Positions 5,678 through 20,865 of a stretch of 64,000 nt of DNA are shown here, in pieces (the stretch's first letter is position 1; every line of letters starts with the position of its first letter). A program made the translations under genes and the position numbers. Under the pieces are notes generated by a model, which was not told the DNA's origin, did not search any database, and was given only the letters and a program-made list of their open reading frames with translations. The stretch comes from Streptomyces sp. NBC_01485 (GTDB lineage: Bacteria; Actinomycetota; Actinomycetes; Streptomycetales; Streptomycetaceae): assembly GCF_036227125.1 (NCBI RefSeq), contig NZ_CP109435.1:1798001-1862000 (forward strand), given 5' to 3'.

Positions 5678-5706
5678 ATGACATGGGCAGAGACTGGGAG
5701 GCCGTC

Positions 5707-6552
5707 ATGGCAGAACGTCCGGCACGGAAGCCGCGGAAGCCTCATTCCGCGCAGGTCGTCCGCACCGAACGGCTCACCCCGCACATGCAGCGCGTCGTGC
5801 TCGGCGGCGAGGGTCTGGCCGAGTTCACGGCGGGCGACTGCACCGACCACTACGTCAAACTCCTCTTCGGCCCCGAGGGCGTCACCTACCCGGAGCCCTT
5901 CGACCTGGAGCACATCCGCGCCGAGTTCCCCCGCGAGCAGTGGCCCGTGACGCGGACGTACACGGCCCGCTACTGGGACGCCGAACACCGCGAGCTGACC
6001 CTGGACTTCGTGCTGCACGGCGACGAGGGCCTGGCCGGGCCGTGGGCGGCGCGCGTGCAGCCGGGCGAGAAGGTCCACTTCCTGGGCCCCGGCGGCGCCT
6101 ACACGCCGGACACGACCGCCGACTGGCATCTGCTGGTCGGCGACGAGAGCGCCCTGCCCGCCATCGCGACCGCCCTGGAGTCGCTGCCCGCCGGCGCCCT
6201 CGCCCACGCCTTCATCGAGGTGACCGGCCCCGAGGAGGAACAGAAGATCGACTCCGACGTGGAGGTCGTCTGGCTGCACCGCGGCGACCGGCCGATCGGC
6301 GAGCGGCTCGTCGAGGCCGTACGGGCGCTGAAGTTCCCCGAGGGCCGCCCGCACGCGTTCGTGCACGGCGAGGCCGCCTGCGTGAAGGAGCTGCGCAAGC
6401 TGCTGCGCGTCGAGCTGGGGATCCCGCGCGAGGACCTGTCGATCTCCGGCTACTGGCGGCTCGGCCACAACGAGGACGGCTGGCAGGCGTCGAAGCCGGA
6501 GTGGAACGCGCGCGTGGAGGCGGAGCAGGAGAAGGCGACGCCGACCGCGTGA
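5707..6552 (+). CDS. Siderophore-interacting protein (ferric-siderophore reductase)
   Basis: The 281-residue protein has an N-terminal FAD-binding barrel (VVRTERLTPHMQRVVLGG, then PVTRTYTARYWD, the RxYT flavin motif) and a C-terminal SIP NAD(P)H-type domain ending ISGYWRLGHNEDGW. Such proteins reduce ferric siderophores in the cytoplasm to release iron. GGGAGG stands before the ATG at 5707, which is preferred over an in-frame ATG at 5683. The iron box directly upstream supports the role. It is a single-gene unit. Confidence 0.93.
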   Translation: MAERPARKPRKPHSAQVVRTERLTPHMQRVVLGGEGLAEFTAGDCTDHYVKLLFGPEGVTYPEPFDLEHIRAEFPREQWPVTRTYTARYWDAEHRELTLDFVLHGDEGLAGPWAARVQPGEKVHFLGPGGAYTPDTTADWHLLVGDESALPAIATALESLPAGALAHAFIEVTGPEEEQKIDSDVEVVWLHRGDRPIGERLVEAVRALKFPEGRPHAFVHGEAACVKELRKLLRVELGIPREDLSISGYWRLGHNEDGWQASKPEWNARVEAEQEKATPTA

Positions 6553-6928
6553 CCCGACAGCCGCCAGCCGACCGCTGGAACGACCGGAACGTCCGGACGT
6601 CCGGGTCGGCTGAGAGTGCCGAACAACCCACGGCCATCGCCCAGTTGAGCGGGTCGAAGTCGGCTGCGTGCCGCATCCACGAAGGCATCCGGGCCGGTGC
6701 CGGGAACGCGGCACCCGGCAGCACGGCTGCGAACATCCACGGCCGGACATGTCGCGAGTCGGACCAGCGGACGAGAGACACGATGTAACGCGACCGAGTG
6801 GCGTTCGAGAGAACGTGAGGACTTGGGCCCGCCCCGGACACGACGGCGTGACGCGCATGAAACAGCGCGTCCCTAATTTCTGTCGCCCGACAGGAATTCC
6901 GTCCCCCTGGGCCCAAGGCAGGTTCGCC
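6553..6928. other. Intergenic region: hairpin, then promoter and operator of permease
   Basis: No gene is seen in these 376 bp. At 6581-6608 an imperfect hairpin centred on ACGTCCGGACGT may terminate the siderophore-reductase transcript. The 24-bp palindrome at 6875-6898 is annotated separately. Confidence 0.6.
6875..6898. promoter_or_regulatory. TetR-type operator, copy 1 (permease)
   Basis: AATTTCTGTCG, a 2-bp centre CC, then CGACAGGAATT: inverted 11-bp arms with one mismatch. It ends 30 bp before the permease start and is nearly identical to the palindrome before the carboxylase operon at 15818-15841. AT-rich arms stand out from the GC-rich surroundings. It is most likely read by the TetR protein encoded at 15092-15718. 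Confidence 0.75.
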
Positions 6929-8491
6929 GTGACGACAACGACACCCCCCGACGTACGCCCCGACCCGCCGCACTCCCCCGTCGCCGACGCCGGCGACGGC
7001 TCCCTCGCCGAGTTCGGCTACCGCCAGGAACTGCACCGCAGCCTGGGCCGGTACGCCTCGTTCGCCGCCGGGTTCTCCTTCATCTCCGTCCTGACGACCG
7101 TCTTCCAGTTCTTCGCCTTCGGTTACGCCTTCGGCGGCCCGGTCTTCTTCTGGGCCTGGCCGGTGGTGCTGGTCGGGCAGTTGCTGGTGGCCGCGTGCTT
7201 CGCGGAACTGGCGGCGCGCTATCCCATCTCCGGCGCGATCTACCAGTGGTCGTCGCGGCTGTCGACGCCGTCGTTCGGCTGGTTCGCCGGCTGGATCATG
7301 GTGATCGGGCAGATCGTCGTGGTCGCCGCCGCCGCGCTCGCGCTGCAGATGGTGCTGCCGGCGATCTGGTCGGGCTTCCAGCTCATCGGCACCGACCCGG
7401 CGCCCACCTCACCCGACGGCGCGGCCAACGCGGCGCTGCTCGGCGTGATCCTGCTGGTGCTGACGACACTGGTGAACGTCCTCGACAACCGCGTGATGTC
7501 CGTGATCAACCGGGTCGGCGTCACCGCCGAGATCATCGGCGCGGTACTCATCGTCGTGCTGCTGCTCACCCACTCCGAGCGCACCCCGAGCATCACCTTC
7601 CACACCGAAGGGGCCGCGCAGAACGGCCTGTTCGGGGCGCTGCTCGTCGGCTCGTTCACGGCCGCCTACGTGATGATCGGCTTCGACAGCGCGGGCGAGA
7701 TGAGCGAGGAGACGCGCGACCCGCGGCGCACCGCGCCCCGCACCATCCTGACCGCGCTCGGCGCGGCGGGCCTGCTCGGCGGCCTGATCGTGCTGGGCGG
7801 CATACTCGCCGCGCCCAGCCTCACCGACGGCCGCCTCGGGGTCGACGGGCTCAGCTACGTCCTCACCAGCAGCCTCGGCGACGGCGTCGGCAAGGCGCTG
7901 CTCGCGGACGTGGTGATCGCGATCGCGGTGGCGACGCTCGCCATCCAGACGGCGGCCTGCCGGATGCTGTTCTCCATGGCCCGCGACGGACAGCTCCCGT
8001 TCTCCGGCCGCCTCGCGCGCGTGAACCCGCGCACCGGCATGCCGAGCGCCCCGGCGCTGGTGGTCGGCGTCCTCGCGGCGGCCCTGCTGCTGCTCAACTT
8101 CGCCTCACCGGAGGCGTTCCTGGCCATCGGCACCACCTGCATCGTGATGCTGTACCTGGCGTACGCGATGGTCACCGGCCCCCTGCTGGTGCGCCGCCTG
8201 CGCGGCCGGTTCTCCTCGACGGGCACGGACGAGACCGGCGCCCGCCTGTTCTCCCTGGGCCGCTGGGGCGTCCCGGTGAACACCCTCGCCCTCCTCTACG
8301 GCCTCCTGATGACGATCAACCTGGCCTGGCCCCGCGCGGCGGTCTACGACCCGGCGGGCGGCCACTGGTACTTCCAGTGGTTCACCGTGCTCTTCCTCGG
8401 TGTGACGGTCGCGATCGGTGTGGCCTTCCGGGCCTACCGGCGGCGGGCGACGGCGCTGGCCGGTGCCGTACCGGAGGCCGCGACGGCGTGA
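6929..8491 (+). CDS. APC-superfamily permease, urea/guanidine carboxylase-associated type
   Basis: From the GTG at 6929 (AAGGCAGG upstream) the protein has 520 residues and about 12 membrane segments. The first segment region reads LGRYASFAAGFSFISVLTTV, and AYVMIGFDSAGEMSEETRDP is the amino-acid/polyamine/organocation signature. Permeases of this subfamily often sit with urea-carboxylase operons. Here the operon is 9 kb away but shares the operator sequence, so this gene probably imports the operon's substrate, guanidine or urea, or a related cation. Frame openings further upstream run through the operator and were rejected. Confidence 0.85.
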   Translation: MTTTTPPDVRPDPPHSPVADAGDGSLAEFGYRQELHRSLGRYASFAAGFSFISVLTTVFQFFAFGYAFGGPVFFWAWPVVLVGQLLVAACFAELAARYPISGAIYQWSSRLSTPSFGWFAGWIMVIGQIVVVAAAALALQMVLPAIWSGFQLIGTDPAPTSPDGAANAALLGVILLVLTTLVNVLDNRVMSVINRVGVTAEIIGAVLIVVLLLTHSERTPSITFHTEGAAQNGLFGALLVGSFTAAYVMIGFDSAGEMSEETRDPRRTAPRTILTALGAAGLLGGLIVLGGILAAPSLTDGRLGVDGLSYVLTSSLGDGVGKALLADVVIAIAVATLAIQTAACRMLFSMARDGQLPFSGRLARVNPRTGMPSAPALVVGVLAAALLLLNFASPEAFLAIGTTCIVMLYLAYAMVTGPLLVRRLRGRFSSTGTDETGARLFSLGRWGVPVNTLALLYGLLMTINLAWPRAAVYDPAGGHWYFQWFTVLFLGVTVAIGVAFRAYRRRATALAGAVPEAATA

Positions 8492-8503
8492 CGCGAGGGC
8501 GGT

Positions 8504-8520
8504 GGGCGCGTGCCGCGCCC
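8504..8520. terminator. Hairpin between convergent genes
   Basis: GGGCGCG and CGCGCCC with a TGC loop fill most of the 31-bp gap between the permease stop and the GNAT stop. It is short but placed to serve both transcripts. Confidence 0.45.
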
Positions 8521-8522
8521 GC

Positions 8523-9104
8523 TCAGTCGCCCTGTACGCGGGCGTGGAGGTGCATGTCGTGCCAGCCGTCCTGGTGGAGGGCGGCGCTGCGCCGGGTGCC
8601 CTCCAGGGTGAAACCGGCCTTCGTGGCGACGCGGCAGGAGGCCTCGTTGGCGGTGGCGTGCATCAGCTCCAGGCGGTGGAAGCCGATCTCGTCGAGGGCC
8701 CAGCGGGTCAGTGCGGTCGTGGCCCGGGGGGCGACTCCCCGGCCACGGGCCGCCTTGGTCGTCCAGTAGGCGACCTCCGCCACGCCGTCACCGAGGTCGA
8801 TGCTGCGCAGCGCCACCCGCCCGAGCAGTTCACCGGTGTCCGTGTCGGCCACGGCCCACTGGGCGTTGCGCTCCCCCGCCCAGCCCTTCCGCCACGCCTC
8901 GATCCAGCCGGCGACCTCCTCCTCGCAGTCGGCGGACCTGACGTGCCACTGGTGCATCGCCGGGTCCTGGAAGGCGGCGTACACGGCGGGCGCGTCCTCG
9001 GCCCGCCACGGGCGCAGGAGGAGGCCGTCGCCGGTGCGGAGCACGGGCTGCGGGGTGCCTGAGAGGGTTCCGGCGGGCAGGACGGAGCCTGCGGTGTAGG
9101 GCAT
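8523..9104 (-). CDS. GNAT N-acetyltransferase (RimJ/RimL-like)
   Basis: About 193 residues. LRTGDGLLLRPWRAEDAPAVY opens a RimJ/RimL-type acetyltransferase_3 domain, followed by VAEVAYWTTKAARGRGVAPRA (the acetyl-CoA binding motif A, Gx-GxG/A-like) and MHATANEASCRVATKAGF. It transfers acetyl from acetyl-CoA to an amine, often a protein N-terminus or a small molecule; the target is unknown. The start is ATG at 9104 or the in-frame ATG at 9113. It is divergent from the pseudouridine synthase gene. Confidence 0.88.
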   Translation of the reverse strand: MPYTAGSVLPAGTLSGTPQPVLRTGDGLLLRPWRAEDAPAVYAAFQDPAMHQWHVRSADCEEEVAGWIEAWRKGWAGERNAQWAVADTDTGELLGRVALRSIDLGDGVAEVAYWTTKAARGRGVAPRATTALTRWALDEIGFHRLELMHATANEASCRVATKAGFTLEGTRRSAALHQDGWHDMHLHARVQGD

Positions 9105-9171
9105 GATCCGCATCCTGCCAACGGGCCGTGAGGAGTCAACCGGGTTTCCCGTCGCCGTACGCTGGACCCCG

Positions 9172-10155
9172 ATGAGACGCCGCACCCCTCCCCCGCCCTC
9201 CCCGCTGCCGCAGCGCGACGGGATCGACGCCGTGCGGGTGCGGCTGCCGGGCGAGGGCGCCTGGGCCACCGTCCGGGAGCACCTGGTGGAGCGGCTCGGC
9301 GGGGCGCGGGCCGCGGCCGTGGACGGGATGCTGGCGGCCGGGCTCGTGGTCGGCGCGGACGGGGCGGCGGTGGCGCCGGACGCGGCGTACGTGCCGGGGA
9401 TGTTCGTGTGGTTCCACCGCGAGCTGCCCGCCGAGGTGCCCGTGCCGTTCCCGCTGGAGATCGTGCACCGCGACGAGCACGTCGTCGTCGTCGACAAGCC
9501 GCACTTCCTGGCCACCACCCCGCGCGGCAGCCATGTCACCGAGACCGCGCTGGCCCGGCTGCGCCGCGAGCTGGGCCTGCCCGCGCTCGGTGCCGCGCAC
9601 CGGCTCGACCGGCTCACCGCCGGGCTCGTGCTGTTCATCGTGCGCCCCGAGGAGCGCGGCGCCTACCAGACGCTGTTCCGCGACCGCCGGGTGCGCAAGG
9701 TGTACGAGGCCGTCGCGCCCCACGACCCCTCGCGCGCCTGGCCGGTGACCGTGCGCAGCCGGATCCTGAAGGAGCGCGGCGTGCTCGCCGCCCGGGAGGT
9801 GCCGGGCGAGCCGAACGCGGTCAGTCACGTCGAGCCGGCCGAGCACCGGCCGGACGGTCTGGCCCGCTACCGGCTGGTCCCCGAGACCGGGCAGACCCAC
9901 CAACTCCGGGTGCACATGGCCGCGTTGGGCGTGCCGATCCTCGGCGATCCGCTCTACCCCGAGGTGGCCGCCCCCGTACCGGCCGACGACTTCCGGTGCC
10001 CGCTGCAACTACTGGCGCGCGAGCTGGAGTTCACCGATCCGGTCACGGGGACGGAGCACCGGCTGCGGAGTGGCCGGACACTCGAGTCCTGGGCGTCGTA
10101 CGGCAGTTGGTACGACGGCCCGGCCGCCACTCCGGCACCGGGCGTCGATCAGTAA
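9172..10155 (+). CDS. RluA-family pseudouridine synthase
   Basis: 327 residues from ATG 9172. HRLDR at about 143-147 contains the catalytic Asp146 of RluA/RluC/RluD-type enzymes, followed by LTAGLVLF. PETGQTHQLRVHMAALGVPILGDPLY is the second family signature. The enzyme isomerises uridine to pseudouridine in rRNA or tRNA; the site is not deducible. There is no obvious S4 domain. Its stop codon overlaps that of the convergent P450 gene by 7 bp. Confidence 0.9.
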   Translation: MRRRTPPPPSPLPQRDGIDAVRVRLPGEGAWATVREHLVERLGGARAAAVDGMLAAGLVVGADGAAVAPDAAYVPGMFVWFHRELPAEVPVPFPLEIVHRDEHVVVVDKPHFLATTPRGSHVTETALARLRRELGLPALGAAHRLDRLTAGLVLFIVRPEERGAYQTLFRDRRVRKVYEAVAPHDPSRAWPVTVRSRILKERGVLAAREVPGEPNAVSHVEPAEHRPDGLARYRLVPETGQTHQLRVHMAALGVPILGDPLYPEVAAPVPADDFRCPLQLLARELEFTDPVTGTEHRLRSGRTLESWASYGSWYDGPAATPAPGVDQ

Positions 10156-11642
10156 CCGCGCCACCAGGACAGGAAGCGCCGCCAGGCGCCTGGCCGGCGG
10201 GCCGGGGTCGTCGGCTCCGGGGCGGGCGGCGCGGGCTGCGCGGCCCGTGGCGCGGTCACCGGGGCGGAAGCGGGCGCCGGCGCGGACTGCGGTTCGGTGC
10301 TCACCGGCCGCGTCATGCGCTGCGGCGGGATCGGGACGTGGCTCGGCTTGTGTTTGACGTCCTGCTGGTCCTTCGGCTCGAACCGGACCGGCAGTTCCAC
10401 CAGGTGCCGCGAGGCGATCGACATCGTCCACCGCAACTCGTCCTCGTCGCAGTCGAGTTGCACGTCCGGCAGCCGCATCAGCAGCGCGTCGACGCCGACG
10501 TCGGCGATGGCGCGGCCGATGTCCTGGCCGGGGCACTCGTGCGGGCCGCTGCTGAAGGCGAGGTGGGAGCGGTTGCCCTGCATGTGGGCGGCGAGGTCGG
10601 GGCGCACCCGGGGATCCACGTTGCCGGGGGCCGGCGCGAAGAACAGGCCGTCGCCCCGGCGGATGCGCTGGCCGCCCAACTCCGTGTCCTGCTTGGCGAA
10701 GTAGGCGAAGACGGTGCTGAACGGGGGCTCGTCCCACAGGGACTGCTCGACCGCCTCCGCCACCGTCATCTGGCCGCCGTTGAGCTGGGCGAGGAACCGC
10801 GGGTCGGTGAGGACCATGCGCAGCACGTTGGAGACCAGGTTGACCGTGGTCTCGTAGGCGGCGAAGAGCACCAGGCGCAGATGCTCCCGGACCTCGTGGT
10901 CGGTGAGTTCCGCCGGGTGGGTGATGAGGTGGCTGGTGAAGTCGTCCTCGGGCCGGGCGCGGCGGCGGGTGGTGAGCCGGGTCAGCGCCCCCATGACGTA
11001 GTCGTGGCTGGCGATGGCGGTCTCGGAGCCCTTGAGCGCGTCGCGGGCGCAGTGGACCATGCGGTCGTTGTACTCGTCGGGCATGCCCAGGACATGGCAC
11101 ATGACGGCCATCGGGAGGTGCTCGACGAACTGGCTCACCAGCTCGGCCCGGCCCTCCTCGCAGAAGTCGTTGACCAGGCGCTGGCTGGAGCGGTTGATGT
11201 ACCGGCGCACGCTGCGGTCGTCGATGGTGGCCATGGCCGAGGTGACCGCGGCCCGCAGCCGCTTGTGCTCGTCGCCCTCGGCGTGGGCGCACATGGGCTG
11301 CCAGGCGATGTGCGGCATGAGCGGGTGGTCGGGCCTGACCTTGCCGTCCAGCAGCGGCGACCAGATGCGGCTGTCCTTGGTGAACAGCGAGGGCGCGCGC
11401 ACCATGTGCAGGTTCTCGGCGTGCCCGAGGACCATCCACATCGGCAGGTCGTCGTGGATCAGGACCGGCGCCACGGGTCCGTGCTGCTCGCGCAGCCGCT
11501 CGTACAGCGCGTTCAGGTCCTCCGAGCCGGGTCCGAAGAGGCGGGTCAGTCCGCCGGGGCCCCGGCCGTGCGCGGGACAGCCGGGCGGCGGGTCCAGGGC
11601 GAGGTCGTGCGGACCGGTCGGGACGGGGTGTTCGGGAGTCAC
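10149..11642 (-). CDS. cvnE: Conservon cytochrome P450, CYP157-like
   Basis: 497 residues. The haem ligand is Cys370 in FSSGPHECPGQDI. The K-helix ExxR motif, normally invariant, is replaced by EQSLW at 299-303, a hallmark of the CYP157 family. The I-helix reads FAAYETT (260-266) rather than AGxxT. After about residue 430 comes a Pro/Ala/Thr-rich tail ending in a basic, aromatic segment (WRRFLSWWRGY), which may touch the membrane. It is the last gene of the conservon and likely works with the CvnABCD signalling complex. Its substrate and redox partner are unknown. Confidence 0.9.
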   Translation of the reverse strand: MTPEHPVPTGPHDLALDPPPGCPAHGRGPGGLTRLFGPGSEDLNALYERLREQHGPVAPVLIHDDLPMWMVLGHAENLHMVRAPSLFTKDSRIWSPLLDGKVRPDHPLMPHIAWQPMCAHAEGDEHKRLRAAVTSAMATIDDRSVRRYINRSSQRLVNDFCEEGRAELVSQFVEHLPMAVMCHVLGMPDEYNDRMVHCARDALKGSETAIASHDYVMGALTRLTTRRRARPEDDFTSHLITHPAELTDHEVREHLRLVLFAAYETTVNLVSNVLRMVLTDPRFLAQLNGGQMTVAEAVEQSLWDEPPFSTVFAYFAKQDTELGGQRIRRGDGLFFAPAPGNVDPRVRPDLAAHMQGNRSHLAFSSGPHECPGQDIGRAIADVGVDALLMRLPDVQLDCDEDELRWTMSIASRHLVELPVRFEPKDQQDVKHKPSHVPIPPQRMTRPVSTEPQSAPAPASAPVTAPRAAQPAPPAPEPTTPARRPGAWRRFLSWWRGY

Positions 11643-11711
11643 AGGGTCGCTCCGAAACTGTGCTGAATCCGGTGTCTGGGGATGTTCTGCGGGTGTCGTG
11701 TGCGGTGGCCG

Positions 11712-12332
11712 TCAGGTGAGGCTGCGGCTGAGTGCCAGGGAGTGCAGGAACTGCATGAGGGTCATCAGGACGTCGCGGCTCGAGGCGCGGCGGCGCACGT
11801 CGCACTCCACGATCGGGATCTCGGGCGGCAGGTCGAGGGCCCCGCGCAGTTCGTCGAGGGGGTAACGGGGCCCGTCGGGGAAGGTGTTGACGGCGACGAC
11901 GAAGGGCACGCCGCCCTCCTCCAGCCGGCCCATGACCTCGAAGCTGACCTCCAGGCGGCGGGTGTCGACCAGTACGACCGCGCCGAGCGCGCCCTCGAAC
12001 AGCCCGTTCCACAGGAACCAGAAGCGCTCCTGGCCGGGCGTGCCGAAGAGGTAGAGCACGACCTGTTCCGTGATGCGGATCCGGCCGAAGTCCATGGCCA
12101 CGGTGGTGGCGGTCTTGGTCTCGGAGCCGTAGTTGTCGTCGACCCCGACGCCCGCCTGGGTCATGGTCTCCTCGGTGGTCAGCGGCCTGATCTCACTGAC
12201 GGAGCCGACCATGGTGGTCTTGCCGACGCCGAAACCGCCCACGATGACGATCTTCGCCGCGGCCGTGGTGGTCTGCGGGAGATAGTCCTCGGACCGTGGG
12301 CCGGGGATCGTGTCAGAGCCGTTGAAGTCCAT
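11712..12332 (-). CDS. cvnD: Conservon Ras-like GTPase CvnD
   Basis: 206 residues. The P-loop GGFGVGKTT is at 32-40, and the switch II/G3 motif FGTPGQERF at 96-104. The usual NKxD G4 motif is replaced by VNTF near 148-151, as is typical of the MglA/CvnD-like family. It is expected to cycle between GTP and GDP forms at the membrane with CvnABC. The start overlaps the end of cvnC by 20 bp, and cvnE follows 69 bp downstream. Confidence 0.93.
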   Translation of the reverse strand: MDFNGSDTIPGPRSEDYLPQTTTAAAKIVIVGGFGVGKTTMVGSVSEIRPLTTEETMTQAGVGVDDNYGSETKTATTVAMDFGRIRITEQVVLYLFGTPGQERFWFLWNGLFEGALGAVVLVDTRRLEVSFEVMGRLEEGGVPFVVAVNTFPDGPRYPLDELRGALDLPPEIPIVECDVRRRASSRDVLMTLMQFLHSLALSRSLT

Positions 12333-12729
12333 GCATCACCGCTTCGAGAAGGGAACGGTCAGGGAGCTGCTGCCGGACGATCGGGGCGCGCGCCTGAACG
12401 AGTTCGGCCGCCAGCATTTCGGTCAGCAGCACCGTCACCACGCTGAACGGGAGACCGAGATAGGCCGACACCTCGGCCACCGAGAGCGGGGCGCCGCACA
12501 TCCGCAGCACCGCCGTCTGCTCCGGCGTGGCCGAGGAGGGCGGTTCGGCACACGCCACGATTAAGGTGACCAGGTCGACGGGAGCGCGCTCGCCGTCCGC
12601 GCCCGTGATGATGTACAGCCGCTCGGGGTTCTTGCCCTCCCCCTCCTGCGGGGGCTGCTGTACGGGCTGCGGCGGGGGCGGGGGCGGTTCCGGCAGGGGT
12701 TGTCGCCGCCTGCGTTGCGGAGGCGTCAT
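12313..12729 (-). CDS. cvnC: Conservon DUF742 protein CvnC
   Basis: 138 residues. A Pro-rich N-terminus is followed by RLYIITGADGERAPVDLVTLI and a winged-helix-like DUF742 domain (PEQTAVLRMCGAPLSVAEVSAYL). CvnC proteins bind the other conservon parts, and the fold suggests DNA or protein binding. The ATG overlaps the cvnB stop codon, indicating coupled translation. Confidence 0.93.
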   Translation of the reverse strand: MTPPQRRRRQPLPEPPPPPPQPVQQPPQEGEGKNPERLYIITGADGERAPVDLVTLIVACAEPPSSATPEQTAVLRMCGAPLSVAEVSAYLGLPFSVVTVLLTEMLAAELVQARAPIVRQQLPDRSLLEAVMHGLQRL

Positions 12730-13133
12730 ACGCTGTGCCCGTTGCGCCGGGGCGGGGTGGTGAGGTGGGCGCCGATGCGGACCACGAGGTCGCGCATGCT
12801 GGCGCTCATCCGGCCGGCCTCGCAGCGGACGTCGGCGAGGACCGCGAGGTAGGCGTTGGCGCCGGCCGCCATCAGGTAGAAGTAGCCGCCGTCCATCTCG
12901 ATGATGACGAGGTTCATGTCGCCGACGACGGCGGGGATCTCCTGGGCGACCGCGCCGGCGAGGCTCTGCATGCCCGCGCAGGCGGCGGCGACCCGGTCCG
13001 CGGCGTCGGGGTCACCGGCGTAGCGGGCGATGCGCAGACCGTCGGCCGACAGCACCACGATCATCTCGATGCCCGGTACGCCGTCGTAGAGCTCCTTGAG
13101 CAGCCAGTCGAAGTTTTGGCGCTGCTGGATCAC
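12726..13133 (-). CDS. cvnB: Conservon roadblock/LC7 protein CvnB
   Basis: 135 residues from a GTG (VIQQRQNFDWLLKELYDG). The sequence is a roadblock/LC7 fold typical of regulators of small GTPases, consistent with partnership to CvnD. The GTG overlaps the cvnA stop (GTGA), with GAAGGGG just upstream as ribosome site. Confidence 0.93.
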   Translation of the reverse strand: MIQQRQNFDWLLKELYDGVPGIEMIVVLSADGLRIARYAGDPDAADRVAAACAGMQSLAGAVAQEIPAVVGDMNLVIIEMDGGYFYLMAAGANAYLAVLADVRCEAGRMSASMRDLVVRIGAHLTTPPRRNGHSV

Positions 13134-14755
13134 GTGAGGTCCCCTTCGTCGTCGGCCTCGGGCTTGGCCTTGTCTTCGAGCAGATGCAGGTAGGCGGTGG
13201 GGTTGCGGGTGAAGTCGGTCGGGTGGACGCCCGGCGGGATGTCCTTCTTCAGGCCCTCCCAGAACGCCTCGAAGGCCACGCCGGGCTCTTGCTTCTTCCG
13301 TTCGGGCTGCGGCTCCGGGCGGGGCTGCGCGAACAGGTCCGGCTTGCCCTGGCGCTCGGCCTCCTGGGCGGCGTACGCCTCCCGGTAGCGCTGGGCGATC
13401 GAGATCGTGGTCTTGCTGCGCCGCTGCGGCAGGCCCTGCTCGGTCCACTCGGTGACCTCGGGCACCTCGTCGTCGGTCAGGGAGATCCCGGCCGGGATGC
13501 GCGCGTTGGTGGGACGGCGCTTCTTGGGCGGGCGCTTGGGGCCCTCGCCGACCTGGCTGAGGTCGATCTGCGGTACGGCGGTGGCGCCGATGCCGTGCGC
13601 GAAGCCGGGGGCGGGTTCGCAGGTCTGCATCTCGCTCGGCACGATGAGGACGGCCCGGACGCCGCCGTAGGCCGACTTGCGCAGCGAGACCTCCAGGTTG
13701 AACGAGGTGCACAGCCGGCCGACGACCGCGAGGCCCAGGCGCGGGGTGATGCCGACGTCCTGGATGTCGACGCCCGCCATGGCCTGCTCCAGCATGCGTT
13801 CGGCCTTGGCGCGGGCCTCCTCGCTGAGGCTGACGCCGGCGTCCTCGATCTCGATGGCGATGCCGGTCTGCACCTCGACGGCGTTGACGTGCACCTTGCT
13901 GTTCGGGGGCGAGTAGCGGGTGGAGTTGTCGAGGAGTTCGGCGAGCGCGTGGATGAGCGGCTCGACGGAGAGGCCGCTGATGTTGACCTTGGCGATGGAG
14001 TCCAGCTGGATGCGCCGGTACTCCAGGATCCGGGACATGGCGCCGCGCAGCACGCTGTACAGCGGGACCGGCTGGGGCCAGTTGCGGCTGGGCCGGCCGC
14101 CGCCGAGCACACCGATGGAGTCGGCGAGGCGGCCGATCAGCGAGGTGCCGTGGTCGATGCGCAGCAGGTCGTCGAAGACCTCGGGGTTACGGCCGTGGTC
14201 CTCCTCCATCTCCCGCAGTTCCGCGGCCTGTTGGTGGACGATGGCCTGCATGCGGCGGGCGATGCTGACGAAGGAGCGCTGGGCGGAGTCGCGCAGGGAC
14301 TCCTCGTGGTCGACGATGTCGAGGATCTTCCGGACCACGGCGCGTTGCGCGTCGTCGAGATCCCGGAACAACTGGTCGCCCTCGGTGAGGTCGCGCATCA
14401 CCTCCCTGGGGGAATTTCCGGCCCGCAGCCACTCCACGGCGTTGGGCACGAACTCCTCGGCGAGGAGGCGGTTCTCCTCACCGTGGTCGGCGACGCACTG
14501 TTCCAGGTAGGCGACGCGCTGCTCCTTCTCCGCGCGCACCTCGCGCAGCAGGCGGCCGCGGCGCGCCGACTCGGCTCCGGCCGCGATCACCAGAAGCGTG
14601 GCGACGGCTCCGCAGACGCCGACGGCGAGCCGGGCCTGCGTCGCCACCAGGGCGACGGCGGCTCCGGTCGCCGCGGCCATCAGTATCGCCGGCAGCAACA
14701 GCACGCGTGCGTAAGGAAGTTCTCGGCGACCGGGTGGGGACTGAACACTCACCAT
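13130..14755 (-). CDS. cvnA: Conservon sensor histidine kinase-like protein CvnA
   Basis: 541 residues. Two hydrophobic segments (about 16-58) anchor a cytoplasmic part with a coiled-coil-like region, a helical dimerisation region, then a GHKL ATPase domain: LAELLDNSTRYSPPNSKVHV is the N-box, and LGLAVVGRLC lies in the G-box region. The C-terminal 150 residues are a charged linker. CvnA is the membrane sensor of the conservon, a heterotrimeric-G-protein-like complex that in Streptomyces affects development and secondary metabolism (the rar/cvn9 type is closest by locus, from memory). It heads the five-gene operon. Confidence 0.93.
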   Translation of the reverse strand: MVSVQSPPGRRELPYARVLLLPAILMAAATGAAVALVATQARLAVGVCGAVATLLVIAAGAESARRGRLLREVRAEKEQRVAYLEQCVADHGEENRLLAEEFVPNAVEWLRAGNSPREVMRDLTEGDQLFRDLDDAQRAVVRKILDIVDHEESLRDSAQRSFVSIARRMQAIVHQQAAELREMEEDHGRNPEVFDDLLRIDHGTSLIGRLADSIGVLGGGRPSRNWPQPVPLYSVLRGAMSRILEYRRIQLDSIAKVNISGLSVEPLIHALAELLDNSTRYSPPNSKVHVNAVEVQTGIAIEIEDAGVSLSEEARAKAERMLEQAMAGVDIQDVGITPRLGLAVVGRLCTSFNLEVSLRKSAYGGVRAVLIVPSEMQTCEPAPGFAHGIGATAVPQIDLSQVGEGPKRPPKKRRPTNARIPAGISLTDDEVPEVTEWTEQGLPQRRSKTTISIAQRYREAYAAQEAERQGKPDLFAQPRPEPQPERKKQEPGVAFEAFWEGLKKDIPPGVHPTDFTRNPTAYLHLLEDKAKPEADDEGDLT

Positions 14756-15091
14756 GTGGGCACCCTCTGTAGGGATCTGTCGGCATCTTCGGGATGTTTG
14801 GGAACAAGCGCACGAATACGCCTCAACTCGGTGCGCCGCGGGCGAGCTTAGTCCGACCGGATCACCACCGCGTCACATTCGGCGACTCTCTGAAACCGGC
14901 TCCGCACATGCAGTAGCCTCAAGCCCATTTAAACGCAGGGGATTTGTTCGAACACGATGCGTGACGACGCACGGGCGTGCGAAACACTTCACCGGGACGG
15001 ATGAGACAACCACCGGCGGGCAACCGTCAGGCGCCCCCAAGTCCTCTCAGGCGGTGTCCAGTTGCCGCGCGGCGTTCGGTCGCCGCGGCGT
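14756..15091. other. Conservon promoter region
   Basis: These 336 bp between the cvnA start and the TetR stop hold no gene I can support. GAGGG precedes the cvnA ATG. An AT-rich patch (CATTTAAAC, near 14926-14934) is unusual for this DNA and may mark the promoter, but no clear -10/-35 pair could be assigned. Confidence 0.5.
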
Positions 15092-15718
15092 TCAGTCGCC
15101 CACGATGCGCAGCGCCGCGTCGGCGGTGGCGCGGGCGAACTCCGAGACGGAGCGGTCGGGATCCGAGCGGTGGACGAGGATGACGCCCTCGATCAGCCCG
15201 AAGACGAGGTCGGTCCGCAGATCGAGCTCACTCTTCGCGAGCGCGCCGCCGGACACCGTCGCGGCGATCAACTGCCGGTAGGCGTCCTTGAGTTCGCCGC
15301 GCACGGCATGGAACCCGGCGAACCGCTCGGTGCGCACCTCGGGCAGCAGGTAGAGGCCGCCGAGGTTGTGCGAGCCGCCGCACAGCAGCTCCACGTCGGT
15401 GCGGCACAGCTCGCGCAGCCGCTCCTCGGCGGCCCGCACGTCGTCCGCGAGCAACCGACGGGCGCAGGTCAGCGAGGGCGTGACCGTCGACTCCAGCAGC
15501 TCGGCGAGCAGCTCCTCCTTGCCGGAGACGTAGTGGTACATGGAGGCCTGGCGCATGCCCGCGCGCTCGGCGACGGCCCGGGTCGTGGTGGCGGCGTACC
15601 CGCGGGTGGTGAACAGCTCCGCGGCGGCCGTGAGCAGTTCGGCGCGCGGCGCGAGCCCGCTGTCCGGGCGCTGCGCGGCCCGTGGCCTGCCCACTCGGCG
15701 TCCGCCGCTCGTCTCCAT
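15092..15718 (-). CDS. TetR-family repressor of the carboxylase operon
   Basis: 208 residues from ATG 15718, preceded by GAGGAT. The N-terminal helix-turn-helix (about 44-63: TRAVAERAGMRQASMYHYVSG) is typical of TetR/AcrR repressors; the rest is a helical ligand domain with two Cys in RELCRTDVELLCGG. It is divergent from the DUF1989-carboxylase operon. The 24-bp palindrome lies 100 bp upstream of its own start and 22 bp before the operon's first gene. It probably senses guanidine, urea or a pathway intermediate and controls both the operon and the distant permease; this is inference. Confidence 0.88.
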   Translation of the reverse strand: METSGGRRVGRPRAAQRPDSGLAPRAELLTAAAELFTTRGYAATTTRAVAERAGMRQASMYHYVSGKEELLAELLESTVTPSLTCARRLLADDVRAAEERLRELCRTDVELLCGGSHNLGGLYLLPEVRTERFAGFHAVRGELKDAYRQLIAATVSGGALAKSELDLRTDLVFGLIEGVILVHRSDPDRSVSEFARATADAALRIVGD

Positions 15719-15817
15719 GCGTTCGATCCTCGCACACGGCACCGGACAGTGATCTTCGTGAGGGGCCGGTAACGAGGTGGCAACGCGGCGGCAACGGCGG
15801 CGACCCGGCCCGCCCCT

Positions 15818-15841
15818 AATTTCTGTCGGGCGACAGAAATT
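15818..15841. promoter_or_regulatory. TetR-type operator, copy 2 (carboxylase operon)
   Basis: AATTTCTGTCG, centre GG, then CGACAGAAATT: perfect 11-bp inverted arms. It sits immediately before the ribosome site (GGAGG) of the first operon gene, so a bound repressor would block transcription start or early elongation. Copy 1 is at 6875-6898. Confidence 0.8.
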
Positions 15842-15863: not shown

Positions 15864-16688
15864 ATGGCGACAGCGACCACCTACGGAGCCCGCGCCCATG
15901 CCCGGGCCCAGGAGGGCACGCGCACCGACACCATGCCCGTCGTACCGGCGGCCGACTGGCCGGCCCCGCCGTGCGAGGCGGGCCACCTGGTGTGGGCCGA
16001 GACGGTCGCGGGCGGCAACTACACCCACCGGGTCCTCGCGCGCGGCACCGAGCTGCGCCTGACCGACCTGCGCGGCGACGCCTGCGCCCACCTGCTCCTC
16101 CATGCGGCGGACCGCCCCTGGGAGCGGCTGAACGTGGCCGACACGGTCAAGGTCCAGTGGAACGCCTACCTCGGCGAGGGCGTGCTGCTCCTGTCCGACC
16201 AGGGGCGGGTCCTCGCCTCGGTCGTCGCCGACACCTCCGGCCGGCACGACGCCCTGTGCGGCACCTCCACCCTCGTACGCAACACCGGGCGCTACGGCGA
16301 CGGCACCCCGCAGTCCCCCTCCCCGGCCGGCCGGGAGCTGTTCAAGCTGGCCGCCGCGAAGAACGGCCTGGAGCCCCGCGACCTGCCGCCCTCGCTGTCC
16401 TTCTTCCAGGGCGTGCGGGTCCGCGGCGACGGCACCCTCGACTTCACCGGCTCGGCCGGCCCGGGCGGCAGTGTCACCCTGCGCGCCGAGCAGGACGTGA
16501 CGGTGCTGATCGCCAACGTGCCGCACCCGGCCGACCCCCGCCCCGAGTACGTCAGCACCCCGCTGGAGGTCCTCGCCTGGCGCGCGGCGCCGACGGCACC
16601 CGGCGACCCGCTGTGGGACACCACCCCCGAGGGCCGCCGCGCCTTCCTCAACACCGCCGAATTCCTCACCGCGAGGGGGCTCGCATGA
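15864..16688 (+). CDS. Urea carboxylase-associated protein (DUF1989), probable carboxyguanidine deiminase subunit
   Basis: 274 residues. After a 35-residue N-terminal extension comes a DUF1989 domain: GGNYTHRVLARGTELRLTDL, then DTSGRHDALCGTSTLVRNT with conserved His, Asp and Cys. It pairs with the next gene; the two families are the classic urea-carboxylase-associated proteins. In characterised bacteria the pair forms carboxyguanidine deiminase, which removes one amino group to make allophanate. It is first in a tightly coupled operon; the stop overlaps the next ATG (ATGA). An internal Met (MPVVPAADW) is an alternative start. Confidence 0.88.
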   Translation: MATATTYGARAHARAQEGTRTDTMPVVPAADWPAPPCEAGHLVWAETVAGGNYTHRVLARGTELRLTDLRGDACAHLLLHAADRPWERLNVADTVKVQWNAYLGEGVLLLSDQGRVLASVVADTSGRHDALCGTSTLVRNTGRYGDGTPQSPSPAGRELFKLAAAKNGLEPRDLPPSLSFFQGVRVRGDGTLDFTGSAGPGGSVTLRAEQDVTVLIANVPHPADPRPEYVSTPLEVLAWRAAPTAPGDPLWDTTPEGRRAFLNTAEFLTARGLA

Positions 16689-17320
16689 ACACCGTCGACC
16701 CGTTGAGGACCGTCGACCCGTCGAAGACCGTCGTCGCGGCCCGCGCCGCCTGGTCGTCCGTCATCCGCGCCGGCGAGACGCTGACCATCACCGACCTGCA
16801 CGGCAACCAGGCCGTCGACTTCCTCGTGTACGACGCCCACGACCCGTCCGTGCGCTACAGCGCGCCGGACACGATCCAGGCGCAGGGCGGCATCTTCCTC
16901 ACCACGGGCAGTGTGCTGATGTCCGGCGAGCACACCCCGCTGATGACGGTGACCGCCGACGCGGTGGGCCGCCACGACACCGTCGGCGGCGCCTGCTCCA
17001 AGGAGTCCAACACCCTGCGCTACGGCCACCACACGTACGCGCAGCACGCCTGCGTGGACAACTTCCTGGCCGAGGGCGCCAAGCACGGCCTCGGCAAGCG
17101 GGACCTGGTCTCCAACATCAACTGGTACATGAACGTCCCGGTCGAGCGGGACGGCACCCTCGGCATCGTCGACGGCCTCTCCGCACCGGGCCTTGCGCTC
17201 ACCCTGCGCGCCGAACGGGACGTCCTCGTCCTGGTCTCCAACTGCCCCCAGATCAACAACCCGTGCAACGGCTTCGAGCCGACCGCCGTGGAGATGACGG
17301 TCACCGGGGCGGACGCATGA
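16685..17320 (+). CDS. Urea carboxylase-associated protein (DUF1989), second carboxyguanidine deiminase subunit
   Basis: 211 residues with the DUF1989 pattern: AGETLTITDLHGNQAVDFLVYD, then DAVGRHDTVGGACSKESNTLRYG and CVDNFL. The GRHD motif and cysteines resemble those of its partner upstream, as expected for a heteromeric metal-dependent deiminase. ATGA overlaps couple it to both the preceding and the following gene, so equal expression is expected. The deiminase function is from family knowledge, not visible in sequence alone. Confidence 0.9.
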   Translation: MNTVDPLRTVDPSKTVVAARAAWSSVIRAGETLTITDLHGNQAVDFLVYDAHDPSVRYSAPDTIQAQGGIFLTTGSVLMSGEHTPLMTVTADAVGRHDTVGGACSKESNTLRYGHHTYAQHACVDNFLAEGAKHGLGKRDLVSNINWYMNVPVERDGTLGIVDGLSAPGLALTLRAERDVLVLVSNCPQINNPCNGFEPTAVEMTVTGADA

Positions 17321-20300
17321 CTTTCGACAAGCTGCTGATCGCCAACCGCGGCGAGATAGCCGTACGGATCATCCGCACCGCCCGCGAACTCGGCCTGCGC
17401 ACGGTCGCGGTGTACTCCGACGCCGACCGCTCGGCGCCCCACGTCCGGCTCGCCGACGAGGCGCTGCGGCTCGGTCCGGCGCCCGCGAAGGAGTCCTACC
17501 TCGACGCCGACCTGGTCCTGAAGGCGGCCAAGGACACCGGCGCGGGCGCGATCCACCCGGGCTACGGCTTCCTCTCCGAGGACGCGCCCTTCGCGCGCCG
17601 CTGCGCCGACGCCGGGATCGTGTTCGTCGGACCGACCCCCGGGCAACTGGAGCTGTTCGGCGCCAAGCACACCGCCCGCGCGGCGGCACAGGCGGCGGGC
17701 GTACCACTGGCGCCGGGCACCGGCCTGCTCTCGGGACTCACCGAGGCACTGGAAAAAGCCCAGCTCATCGGCTATCCGGTCATGCTCAAGGCGACGGGCG
17801 GAGGCGGCGGCATCGGCATGTCGGCCTGCCACTCCCCCGACGGACTCACCGACGCCTGGGAACGCGTCCAGCGCGTCGCCGCCGCCTCCTTCTCCTCCGC
17901 CGGCGTCTTCCTGGAACGGCTCGTGGAGCACGCCCGCCATGTCGAGGTGCAGGTCTTCGGCGACGGCGAGGGCAGGGTCGTCACCTTCGGCGACCGCGAC
18001 TGCTCGCTCCAGCGCCGCAACCAGAAGGTCCTGGAGGAGGCGCCGGCCCCGGGCCTCCCTGACCACGTGCGCGACCAACTCACCTCCTCCGCCCGCGACT
18101 TGTGCGCCTCCGTCGGCTACCGCTCCGCCGGGACCGTCGAGTTCGTCTACGACGCGGCCCGCGAGGAGGCCTACTTCCTGGAGGTCAACACCCGTCTCCA
18201 GGTGGAACATCCGGTCACCGAGGAGATCTACGGCGTCGACCTGGTCGCCTGGATGCTGCGCCTGGCGCGCGGCGAGCGGGACGTCGTACACGACCCCGGC
18301 GCCCCGCGCGGCCACGCCGTCGAGGCCCGCCTCTACGCGGAGGACCCGAGCCGCGAACACCGGCCCAGCGCGGGCCTGTTGACCCGGGTCGAGTTCCCGG
18401 CCGGGGTACGCGTCGACGGCTGGGTGGAGACGGGCACCGAGGTGACCACGTCGTACGACCCGATGCTCGCGAAGGTGATCGCCTACGGCCCCGACCGGGA
18501 GCACGCGCTGCGCCGCCTCGACGAGGCGCTGGCCCGCACCCGCGTCGACGGCGTCGAGACCAACCTGGGGCTGGTGCGCGCCTCGCTCACCGACCCGGAC
18601 TTCCGCCGGGCGACCCACTCCACGGCGACCCTCGCCACGGTCACCGACCCGACCCCGCGCATCGAGGTCGTCGCCGGCGGCACCCTCACCACCGTGCAGG
18701 ACTGGCCCGGCCGCACCGGCCACTGGCAGGTCGGGGTGCCGCCGTCCGGCCCGATGGACGACCGCTCCTTCCGCCTCGGCAACCGGGCATTGGGCAACCC
18801 CGAGGGCACCCCGGGCCTGGAGTGCACCCTCCAGGGCCCGACGCTGCGCTTCACCCACCCCACGACGGTGTGCGTGACGGGCGCCCCGGCGCCGGTCGCC
18901 GTGGACGGCAGGGCGGTGCCGCAGTGGGAGCCCGTGACCGTGCCGGCCGGGGCCGTGCTGGAGATCGGCGCGCCCGGCGAACACGGCCTGCGCACCTACG
19001 TCCTGTTCTCGGGCGGCCTGGACGTCCCCGCCTTCCTGGGCAGCGCGAGCACCTTCACGCTGGGCCGCTTCGGCGGACACGGCGGGCGCGCGCTGCGGAC
19101 GGGCGACGTCCTGCACGGCGGGACGACCACCGAGGGCGGGGCGGCCATAGAAGGCGGGGCGGCCGTAGAAGGCACCGCCGCACCGGTCACGGACCGTCCG
19201 GAGTTCGCCCCCGTCTGGCACATCGGCGCGGTCGAAGGCCCGCACGCGGCCCCGGAGTTCTTCACCGAGGACGACATCCGCGACTTCTACGCCGCCGACT
19301 GGAAGGTCCACTTCAACTCGGCCCGCACCGGCGTGCGCCTGGTGGGACCGAAACCGCGCTGGGCGCGCACGGACGGCGGCGAGGCGGGCCTGCACCCGTC
19401 CAACATCCACGACACGCCCTACTCCGTCGGCGCCGTCGACTACACCGGCGACATGCCGGTGCTGCTCGGCCCGGACGGCCCCTCGCTCGGCGGGTTCGTG
19501 TGCCCGGCGACCGTGCTCAGCTCCGAGCGCTGGAAGCTCGGCCAACTGCGCCCCGGCGACACGGTCCGCTTCCGGCCGGTGGACGTGTCCGGCGCGCCCC
19601 GCGCCGACATCGTCGACGGCGGCGTACTGGCCCGCGACGGCGACGTCACCTACCGGCGCAGCGGCGACGACAACCTGCTGGTCGAGTTCGGACCCATGCA
19701 ACTCGACCTGGCGCTGCGCATGCGGGTCCACGCGCTGATGGAGGCGGTGGCCGAGGCGGACCTGACGGGCGTCAGCGACCTCACCCCGGGCATCCGCTCC
19801 CTCCAGATCCAGACGGACCCCCGCCGCCTCCCCCAACACGAACTCCTCGCGGTCGTCCGGGAGATGACGGCGGCCCTCCCGCCCTCGGACGAGCTGGTCG
19901 TCCCCTCCCGTACCGTGCACCTCCCCCTGTCCTGGGACGACCCGGCCACCCGCGAGGCGATCGCCCGCTACATGGCGGGCGTCCGCGACGACGCGCCCTG
20001 GTGCCCGTGGAACATCGAGTTCATCCGCCGGGTCAACGGCCTGGAGTCGGTGGCCGACGTCTACGACACGGTCTTCGCCGCGGAGTACCTGGTCCTGGGC
20101 CTGGGTGACGTCTACCTGGGCGCCCCGGTCGCCACCCCCCTCGACCCCCGCCACCGCCTGGTGACGACCAAGTACAACCCCGCACGCACCTGGACGGCCG
20201 AGAACTCGGTCGGTATCGGCGGGGCGTACCTGTGCGTCTACGGCATGGAGGGCCCCGGCGGCTACCAGTTCGTGGGCCGGACGACCCAGGTGTGGTCGCC

Positions 20301-20865
20301 CTGGCAGCAGCGCGGCGCGTTCGAGGCGGGCTCGCCCTGGCTGCTGCGCTTCTTCGACCGGATCCGCTGGTACCCGGTCGACCCGGACGAACTCCTCGAC
20401 CTGCGGGCCGACATCATCTCGGGCCGCTTCGTGCCGCGCATCGAGGAGGGCACCTTCTCGCTCGCCGGGTACCAGACCTTCCTGGCCGAACACGCGGACT
20501 CCATCGCGGAGTTCAGGTCCGGCCAGCGCACCGCGTTCGCGGCGGAGCGGGACGCGTGGGAGGCGGCGGGCGAGTTCACCCGCGCGGAGGCCGCGGCAGC
20601 GCCGCCCGCTCCCCCTGCCGAGGTGGCACTCCCGCCGGGCGGCCGCCTGGTCGAGGCCGAATTCGCCGCGTCCGTATGGCAGTTGAACGTGTCTCCCGGC
20701 GACGAGGTGACGGCGGGACAGCCGCTGCTCGCCCTGGAGGCGATGAAGATGGAGTCCAGGGTGCACGCGCCGGTCGACGGCGTGGTGGCGCAGATCCTGG
20801 CCCGACCCGGCGACCAGGTCGAGGCGGGGACGGCACTGCTCGTCCTGGCCCCGGCCGCGAGCTGA
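17317..20865 (+). CDS. Biotin-dependent urea/guanidine carboxylase
   Basis: 1182 residues. Domain order: biotin carboxylase (about 1-446, FDKLLIANRGEIAVRII, ATP-grasp GGGGGIGM); KipA/AHS2-like half of the carboxyltransferase (from about 449); KipI/AHS1-like half (from about 775); and a C-terminal biotinyl domain with LEAMKMES, the biotinylated Lys being 1144. It carboxylates guanidine or urea with ATP and bicarbonate. Allophanate hydrolase is a separate gene here, unlike the fused fungal enzyme. The neighbouring DUF1989 pair favours guanidine as substrate. It starts by ATGA overlap with the previous gene. Confidence 0.94.
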   Translation: MTFDKLLIANRGEIAVRIIRTARELGLRTVAVYSDADRSAPHVRLADEALRLGPAPAKESYLDADLVLKAAKDTGAGAIHPGYGFLSEDAPFARRCADAGIVFVGPTPGQLELFGAKHTARAAAQAAGVPLAPGTGLLSGLTEALEKAQLIGYPVMLKATGGGGGIGMSACHSPDGLTDAWERVQRVAAASFSSAGVFLERLVEHARHVEVQVFGDGEGRVVTFGDRDCSLQRRNQKVLEEAPAPGLPDHVRDQLTSSARDLCASVGYRSAGTVEFVYDAAREEAYFLEVNTRLQVEHPVTEEIYGVDLVAWMLRLARGERDVVHDPGAPRGHAVEARLYAEDPSREHRPSAGLLTRVEFPAGVRVDGWVETGTEVTTSYDPMLAKVIAYGPDREHALRRLDEALARTRVDGVETNLGLVRASLTDPDFRRATHSTATLATVTDPTPRIEVVAGGTLTTVQDWPGRTGHWQVGVPPSGPMDDRSFRLGNRALGNPEGTPGLECTLQGPTLRFTHPTTVCVTGAPAPVAVDGRAVPQWEPVTVPAGAVLEIGAPGEHGLRTYVLFSGGLDVPAFLGSASTFTLGRFGGHGGRALRTGDVLHGGTTTEGGAAIEGGAAVEGTAAPVTDRPEFAPVWHIGAVEGPHAAPEFFTEDDIRDFYAADWKVHFNSARTGVRLVGPKPRWARTDGGEAGLHPSNIHDTPYSVGAVDYTGDMPVLLGPDGPSLGGFVCPATVLSSERWKLGQLRPGDTVRFRPVDVSGAPRADIVDGGVLARDGDVTYRRSGDDNLLVEFGPMQLDLALRMRVHALMEAVAEADLTGVSDLTPGIRSLQIQTDPRRLPQHELLAVVREMTAALPPSDELVVPSRTVHLPLSWDDPATREAIARYMAGVRDDAPWCPWNIEFIRRVNGLESVADVYDTVFAAEYLVLGLGDVYLGAPVATPLDPRHRLVTTKYNPARTWTAENSVGIGGAYLCVYGMEGPGGYQFVGRTTQVWSPWQQRGAFEAGSPWLLRFFDRIRWYPVDPDELLDLRADIISGRFVPRIEEGTFSLAGYQTFLAEHADSIAEFRSGQRTAFAAERDAWEAAGEFTRAEAAAAPPAPPAEVALPPGGRLVEAEFAASVWQLNVSPGDEVTAGQPLLALEAMKMESRVHAPVDGVVAQILARPGDQVEAGTALLVLAPAAS

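Follow-up and report, generated by a model that had tools for sequence, protein, structure and literature searches.

A 64,000-nucleotide stretch of contig NZ_CP109435.1 of Streptomyces sp. NBC_01485 (positions 1,798,001 to 1,862,000; hereafter the window) carries two copies of a long palindrome, one in front of an operon for two DUF1989 proteins, a biotin-dependent carboxylase and an allophanate hydrolase, and the other in front of a distant APC permease gene. We found that the TetR-family protein encoded beside the operon is a homologue of AmtR. It probably binds both palindromes, repressing a predicted guanidine operon and a predicted guanidine permease, as judged from the sequences of this window and its relatives. 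All of the genes that an earlier note on this DNA had named as targets, from the permease to the allophanate hydrolase, were found as predicted members of the regulon, and the split layout it described was upheld.

We took as reference the 24-bp palindrome AATTTCTGTCGNNCGACAGAAATT, with arms AATTTCTGTCG-N2-CGACAGAAATT. The two copies lie where the earlier note had placed them (Table 1), with 0 mismatches at the operon and 1 at the permease. The operon copy ends 22 bp before the ATG at 15864 and the permease copy 30 bp before the GTG at 6929, which, both start codons being inferred, reproduces the claimed distances of 22-30 bp. At up to three mismatches the pattern was found at just these two places in the window and at the same two places only, with no unrelated genes, in the whole genome (9,167,220 bases, two contigs), where the reversed control pattern gave 0 matches. 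The claim that such a pair is very unlikely by chance also held: 0/100 shuffles gave a match, and base composition predicts about 4.5e-7 sites genome-wide at up to one mismatch. Within both palindromes the core is CTGTC-N4-GACAG, that is, CTGT-N6-ACAG; the Corynebacterium box core CTAT-N6-ATAG does not occur at the window sites. The bare core was tried as a genome-wide probe and rejected as unspecific, with 12 places versus 10 for the reversed control. No consensus sigma-70 promoters were found at the two palindromes. TAATTT at the edge of each resembles a -10 element, and a terminator-like stem (6850-6871) overlaps the GlnR-type site before the permease.

To follow the operators through the genus we used 61 Streptomyces genomes, the window's own included. 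AmtR was present at E <= 1e-30 in 23 of these (20 at 61% identity or more), the carboxylase in 17, and the operator pattern at up to one mismatch in 21, compared with 2 for the reversed control pattern. All 17 carboxylase genomes encode AmtR, the closer form in 14 and a more distant form (~40%) in 3, and the operon palindrome is kept in 14/14 genomes that combine the carboxylase with the closer form. The 14 perfect matches in the sample all adjoin amtR: 13 lie in carboxylase genomes and 1 in a 79%-complete draft with no carboxylase match (G001), the fourteenth operon site of the closer-AmtR genomes, in G014, having one mismatch. Single imperfect matches were found in genomes without the operon (G017, G032, G050, G051, G054 and G055), and one further imperfect match, outside the regulon, occurs in each of G001, G024, G028 and G040.

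A scan of 84,980 species found 141 encoded relatives of the window AmtR, of which we kept the best 80 loci, 78 titled Streptomyces and 2 'Actinobacteria bacterium'. These loci are not independent of the genus and class samples, because some appear to be the same assemblies. Wherever the start of the operon could be seen, its operator is present (77/77 loci), with all 16 fixed positions matched in 76; three loci that end before that start (L211, L222, L234) were left out of the count. The permease was seen in 65 of the 80, and our script scored its operator in 54. Of its 11 misses, nine are loci whose permease begins at the limit of the stretch or outside it, and in two (L186, L228) the site coincides with the estimated start or falls just inside it. 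In this sample of related Streptomyces the palindrome thus co-occurs with this AmtR, the operon and the permease, a check that the earlier note had suggested, and the note's view of the neighbouring TetR protein as the natural reader of the palindromes is supported by these sequences.

The single mismatch of the permease operator is a fixed feature of close relatives. All 54 scored loci have one or more permease operators with GACAGGAA in place of GACAGAAA (56/57 copies), the same position always changing from A to G; a permease operator with GACAGGAA may be weaker than the operon operator. More distant permease sites differ in other ways, with GACAGGTA in L092 and TAACTGTC together with GACAGAAA in L136-L138. 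A second operon type, ordered permease-CgdA-CgdB-carboxylase-hydrolase-amtR, has the operator TACCTGTC-N4-GACAGGTA in 8/8 loci, with core and spacing as here and flanks TACC for TTTC. In another locus (L112:11170-11425), three perfect CTGTC-N4-GACAG cores precede CgdA, and a further variant site lies near 8781.

In five loci (L092, L093, L094, L095 and L108) the permease adjoins amtR and lies some 2.5 kb from the operon, and no conservon genes were found between permease and amtR in any of them; in L095 the order is siderophore-interacting protein gene, permease, amtR, operon and helicase, with no conservon between. Since permease, amtR and operon stand side by side in several relatives, the conservon of the window looks like a later insertion between permease and amtR. 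The earlier note had described a split regulon with an entire conservon between its halves; the split layout stands, and the conservon looks inserted and not part of the regulon. A different rearrangement is seen in one genome (G240; loci L135 and L180), in which amtR stays by the helicase, 1.15 Mb from the operon and the permease, each of which has its operator. The retention of operators at this distance argues for AmtR action in trans.

By its aligned residues, the carboxylase of the window operon carries a guanidine-type signature and not a urea one. D726 and D949 of the protein (P0005), both aspartate (Asp), align with positions 1330 and 1584 of the Kluyveromyces lactis enzyme. According to the parts of PMC11410670 used here, Asp at 1584 is required and Asp at 1330 separates guanidine from urea carboxylases, and the portion of PMC12186494 used likewise gives aspartate as the mark of guanidine carboxylases and asparagine (Asn) as that of urea carboxylases. 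The operon is predicted to serve guanidine breakdown (CgdA-CgdB-carboxylase-allophanate hydrolase), the CgdA and CgdB calls for the window genes resting on UAAP1 and UAAP2 family scores that are both over cut-off.

We then compared carboxylase type with the distribution of AmtR. Of 394 genomes sampled from the class Actinomycetes, 45 had a carboxylase match; from the class and genus samples together we classified 51 operons as Asp-type and 10 as Asn-type. The Asp set includes the window and 12 operons whose carboxylase is divided among separate proteins; the Asn set does not count a fragment of that type at the end of a contig in G096. Twelve genomes of one other family (f4; L168-L179) have a split guanidine-type carboxylase, and in L177 the biotin-carboxylase and carrier-like pieces appeared as separate matches. 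Both DUF1989 subunits stand beside the carboxylase in 51/51 Asp loci and 0/10 Asn loci. AmtR is encoded, at E <= 1e-20, in 51/51 Asp-type genomes; 9 of 11 Asn genomes are without it, and the other two (G419, G090) have it beside a second, Asp-type operon. Counting only AmtR genes in the same fetched stretch, the figures are 48/51 Asp loci versus 0/10 Asn loci. The core CTGTC-N4-GACAG was found upstream in perfect form in 40/51 and at up to one mismatch in 49/51 Asp loci, versus 0/10 and 1/10 Asn loci, in a search that covered up to four windows per Asp locus and only the window before the carboxylase in Asn loci; whole Asn stretches gave a perfect core in 0/10 and any core at one mismatch in 2/10. 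One Asp locus (L129), with its permease start outside the stretch and its permease windows uninformative, was counted on its real operon site. The contrast is kept over nine families and three placements of amtR (divergent, downstream and unlinked). In a tree of 61 carboxyltransferase domains, the Asp and Asn types form one clade each with full support; Fisher tests of carboxylase type against AmtR gave very small p values, which we set aside because the tree shows one origin per carboxylase type. So AmtR tracks guanidine-type and not urea-type carboxylases, and the 'guanidine or urea' of the earlier note resolves towards guanidine, supported by the enzyme signature together with this co-occurrence.

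Riboswitch control of the operon was considered and rejected for the window, and for guanidine riboswitch classes I and III at the operons of 50 genomes. That set covers 41 of the 51 Asp operons; the remaining 10 belong to split-carboxylase genomes. An Rfam scan of the window listed only a Streptomyces-metH RNA (RF03076; 55397-55540, minus strand, 93 bits) and no guanidine riboswitch by operon or permease. In the genome searches for guanidine-I and -III, which used stricter filters that may have lost weak matches (classes II and IV were covered by the window scan only), guanidine-I exceeded its cut-off in 0/50 genomes, two weak matches lying away from operons. Guanidine-III was found in 37/50 at E <= 0.001 (35 over cut-off); none lay within ~100 kb of an operon on the operon contig, the others being on other contigs, and the window's own genome gave no match. 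In L147 and L149, guanidine-III precedes an open reading frame that by eye resembles a Gdx/SugE-like exporter of the small multidrug resistance type, and both genomes also hold an AmtR-linked operon.

GlnR-type sites lie beside both operators, and the likely logic is that GlnR calls for nitrogen and AmtR permits. The GlnR a/b site consensus is GTNAC-n6-GAAAC, with GCAAC allowed in Mycobacterium smegmatis (PMC10704036, in part), and GlnR binding upstream of the orthologous permease was shown in that species (PMC4222082, in part). Before the permease, a perfect site was found in 42/56 loci (shuffle mean 0.04), in 37 of which its distance to the downstream TTTCTGTC is exactly 29 bp, and a site at up to one mismatch in 55/56, with 49 at the same spacing (shuffle mean 0.56). 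Before the operon, the first 16 bp of the repeats match the consensus at up to one mismatch in 75/78 promoters, 72 of them at 51 bp (shuffle mean 0.4), and perfectly in just 1/78. The idea that a GlnR-type site generally accompanies the AmtR site was rejected: no perfect site was found in the second operon type (0/8), and the other Asp loci have one in 8/20, the only match of L172 lying inside its AmtR box. The Asn operons gave 0/10, a weak result, as the first genes of these operons were not identified.

The window AmtR is about 38% identical to Corynebacterium glutamicum AmtR over the aligned model. Among operon-linked AmtRs, D108 and N118 are each found in 48/48, E127 in 47/48, and E177, R140 and Y147 in 47/47 each. 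Each of these residues lies in one of the predicted helices (97-113, 126-129, 131-154, 162-185) or immediately ahead of helix 119-124, in the part of TetR proteins that holds the ligand. At the positions of D108, E127 and E177, M. smegmatis AmtR has D, E and E, and C. glutamicum AmtR has E, I and M, the M falling in a weakly aligned stretch; the fold, N118 and Y123 are common to the window and C. glutamicum proteins. The acids appear to be lost where GlnK is the proposed signal and kept where the operon is guanidine-type, a pattern that would fit a cationic ligand. We tentatively name guanidine or an intermediate of the pathway as the signal that releases AmtR, with D108, E127 and E177 as candidate ligand contacts, and regard this as the least certain step of the proposed mechanism. 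Just as tentatively, AmtR of Actinomycetes outside Corynebacterium might be a protein guanidine sensor, in which three acids and aromatics would hold the guanidinium. Among the papers searched, none paired AmtR with guanidine, and in the literature listings we recognized no guanidine-responsive protein regulator.

Taken with what is known of orthologues, AmtR would repress by direct binding at both operators, act in trans on the distant permease, and autoregulate amtR from the shared operon operator. GlnR is predicted to activate both promoters in nitrogen starvation through the upstream sites, and expression would then need both low nitrogen and AmtR release.

Several observations weigh against this picture or its guanidine component. 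No permease was found in the stretch in 15 of the best 80 loci, including four with full flanks (L190, L236, L239, L249), and the window permease itself scores 658 bits with TIGR03428, below the curated cut-off of 740. Five Streptomyces (L140-L144) have amtR by the same helicase and no carboxylase in the genome, with no operator or permease found in these stretches; as they keep AmtR without carboxylase or nearby box, AmtR may have roles beyond the guanidine operon. Two Asp loci (L110, L177) have no core recognizable by the core scan, the palindrome finder also giving nothing on L110, and nine further Asp loci have an imperfect core only. The Asn sample is small, at 10 operons, and one clade per carboxylase type makes the AmtR-guanidine link a single evolutionary contrast. 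The second operon type was without a perfect GlnR-type site, and the E177 comparison with C. glutamicum depends on the weakly aligned stretch. We found no AmtR effector in the literature; in the part of PMC4222082 drawn on here, urea and amino acids had no effect on M. smegmatis AmtR binding, and guanidine is not among the compounds named.

Among other explanations, AmtR could be a ligand-free repressor, with induction only by GlnR outcompeting it and the level of AmtR tuned otherwise, for instance by antisense RNA. An antisense transcript over amtR and GlnR competition have both been reported in M. smegmatis (PMC4617892 and PMC10704036, in part), and GlnR-type sites adjoin both operators in the window; the near-invariant polar residues of the ligand domain, and the 8/8 loci of the second operon type with AmtR and operator yet no perfect GlnR-type site, make this explanation rather unlikely. 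We consider it unlikely, too, that AmtR is a plain nitrogen-status regulator released by PII (GlnK), the guanidine operon being one scavenging target and no small molecule being sensed. Such release, by adenylylated GlnK, has been proposed for C. glutamicum AmtR (PMC7919409, in part), with which the window protein shares its fold, N118 and Y123. In M. smegmatis, however, PII was reported not to regulate the transcriptional response (PMC4617892, in part), nitrogen control was GlnR-dependent and still operated in an amtR mutant (PMC4222082, in part), and the near-invariant D108, E127 and E177 align with E, I and M in C. glutamicum, the last with low confidence. That the operon degrades urea, with a regulator responding to urea or allophanate, would agree with the historic family name of urea carboxylase, but is very improbable given Asp at the 1330 position that separates the two enzymes (PMC11410670), the DUF1989 pair confined to Asp loci, and M. 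smegmatis AmtR binding that urea left unaffected (PMC4222082). Finally, five genomes keep AmtR without the box, but binding of the palindromes by another regulator, with AmtR an incidental neighbour, is hardly credible when core and spacing equal the quoted S. avermitilis AmtR consensus (PMC8864220), palindrome and AmtR co-occur tightly, and the more distant AmtR group has the same core and spacing with altered flanks in 8/8 loci.

If guanidine is indeed what AmtR senses, a TetR repressor would take the place of guanidine riboswitches for a breakdown operon and its importer, and many of the same genomes would read guanidine by RNA for export and by protein for eating. That M. smegmatis AmtR did not respond to urea would also agree with a guanidine-responsive AmtR. 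Because it follows guanidine-type and not urea-type carboxylases, AmtR is a concrete candidate for a guanidine-sensing protein, and the link would bring guanidine sensing by proteins within direct reach of a test.

The features of the locus are collected in Table 1. A homologue of the siderophore-interacting FAD-binding protein encoded upstream of the permease was also seen near amtR or the permease in several relatives.

Table 1. Predicted regulon and neighbouring features in the window (positions are those of the window).
Feature	Position	Strand	Evidence
AmtR-type operator (predicted) of the permease, GACAGGAA variant	6875..6898	.	56/56 loci with its place in view (54 by script, 2 by reading)
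AmtR-type operator (predicted) of the operon, also upstream of amtR	15818..15841	.	77/77 loci with operon start in view
GlnR-type a/b site GTGAC-n6-GAAAC, predicted GlnR input upstream of the permease operator	6848..6863	+	0 mismatches
GlnR-type repeats GTAAC-n6-GCAAC-n6-GCAAC, 11-bp steps, predicted GlnR input	15769..15795	+	sequence
APC permease, urea-carboxylase-system type; predicted guanidine importer	6929..8491	+	TIGR03428 E 7.7e-198, 658 bits; AA_permease_2
AmtR homologue, TetR-family repressor, divergent from operon	15092..15718	-	AmtR homology
CgdA-type carboxyguanidine deiminase subunit (DUF1989, 'urea amidolyase associated protein UAAP1')	15864..16688	+	TIGR03425 311.6 bits, cut-off 205.95
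CgdB-type carboxyguanidine deiminase subunit (DUF1989, UAAP2)	16685..17320	+	TIGR03424 323.8 bits, cut-off 284.7
Biotin-dependent carboxylase, guanidine signature (family named 'urea carboxylase')	17317..20865	+	TIGR02712 1832.7 bits; Asp at both diagnostic positions
Allophanate hydrolase (start codon approximate)	20883..22538	+	TIGR02713 698.3 bits, cut-off 511.05
Conservon genes, outside the regulon	11712..14755	-	HATPase kinase-like 13130-14755, DUF742 12313-12729, ATP_bind_1 11712-12332
Siderophore-interacting FAD-binding protein gene, directly upstream of the permease	5683-6552

The pairing of palindrome and regulator is one more example of a regulon type already in print, to which the guanidine reassignment and the candidate sensor are added here. 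Chen et al. 2013 (Microbiology 159:2571) reportedly defined both intergenic AmtR sites by gel shift and mutagenesis, together with two further sites, and are said to have described the carboxylase as a urea carboxylase and the regulon as marginal to nitrogen control. The regulon is less surprising than the earlier note had taken it to be, because it has been published for AmtR of Streptomyces avermitilis (PMC4222082, PMC8864220; both drawn on in part). That species has amtR (sav6701) opposite in direction to the operon for the carboxylase (sav6698) and amidase (sav6697), with the permease (sav6709) elsewhere (Jessberger et al. 2013, PMC4222082); the layout is as here, sav6709 standing apart from sav6697-6701. 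The AmtR consensus for S. avermitilis and relatives, TAtCTGTCa-n2-cGACAGATAT (quoted from Chen et al. 2013 in PMC8864220), shares CTGTC-N4-GACAG with the window sites. Beyond that description, our analysis adds the guanidine signature of the carboxylase, the sites of GlnR type and the variant operator at the permease.

The M. smegmatis AmtR (MSMEG_4300) regulon, as given in the part of PMC4222082 used, is small like that of the window and comprises a permease, two unknown reading frames, a carboxylase and a hydrolase; AmtR binds upstream of the permease there, and transcript signals were stronger in an amtR mutant. Unlike the adjoining amtR of the window, M. smegmatis amtR is unlinked. C. glutamicum AmtR shares the TetR fold and a palindrome, CTAT-N6-ATAG, with the same half-site spacing, but differs in being a central nitrogen repressor with proposed GlnK release and in a core base. 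Carboxylase operons under guanidine riboswitches have the same set of guanidine-breakdown enzymes (PMC12186494, in part); they are controlled by RNA, whereas here no guanidine-I over cut-off was found in the 50 genomes and guanidine-III occurred only elsewhere.

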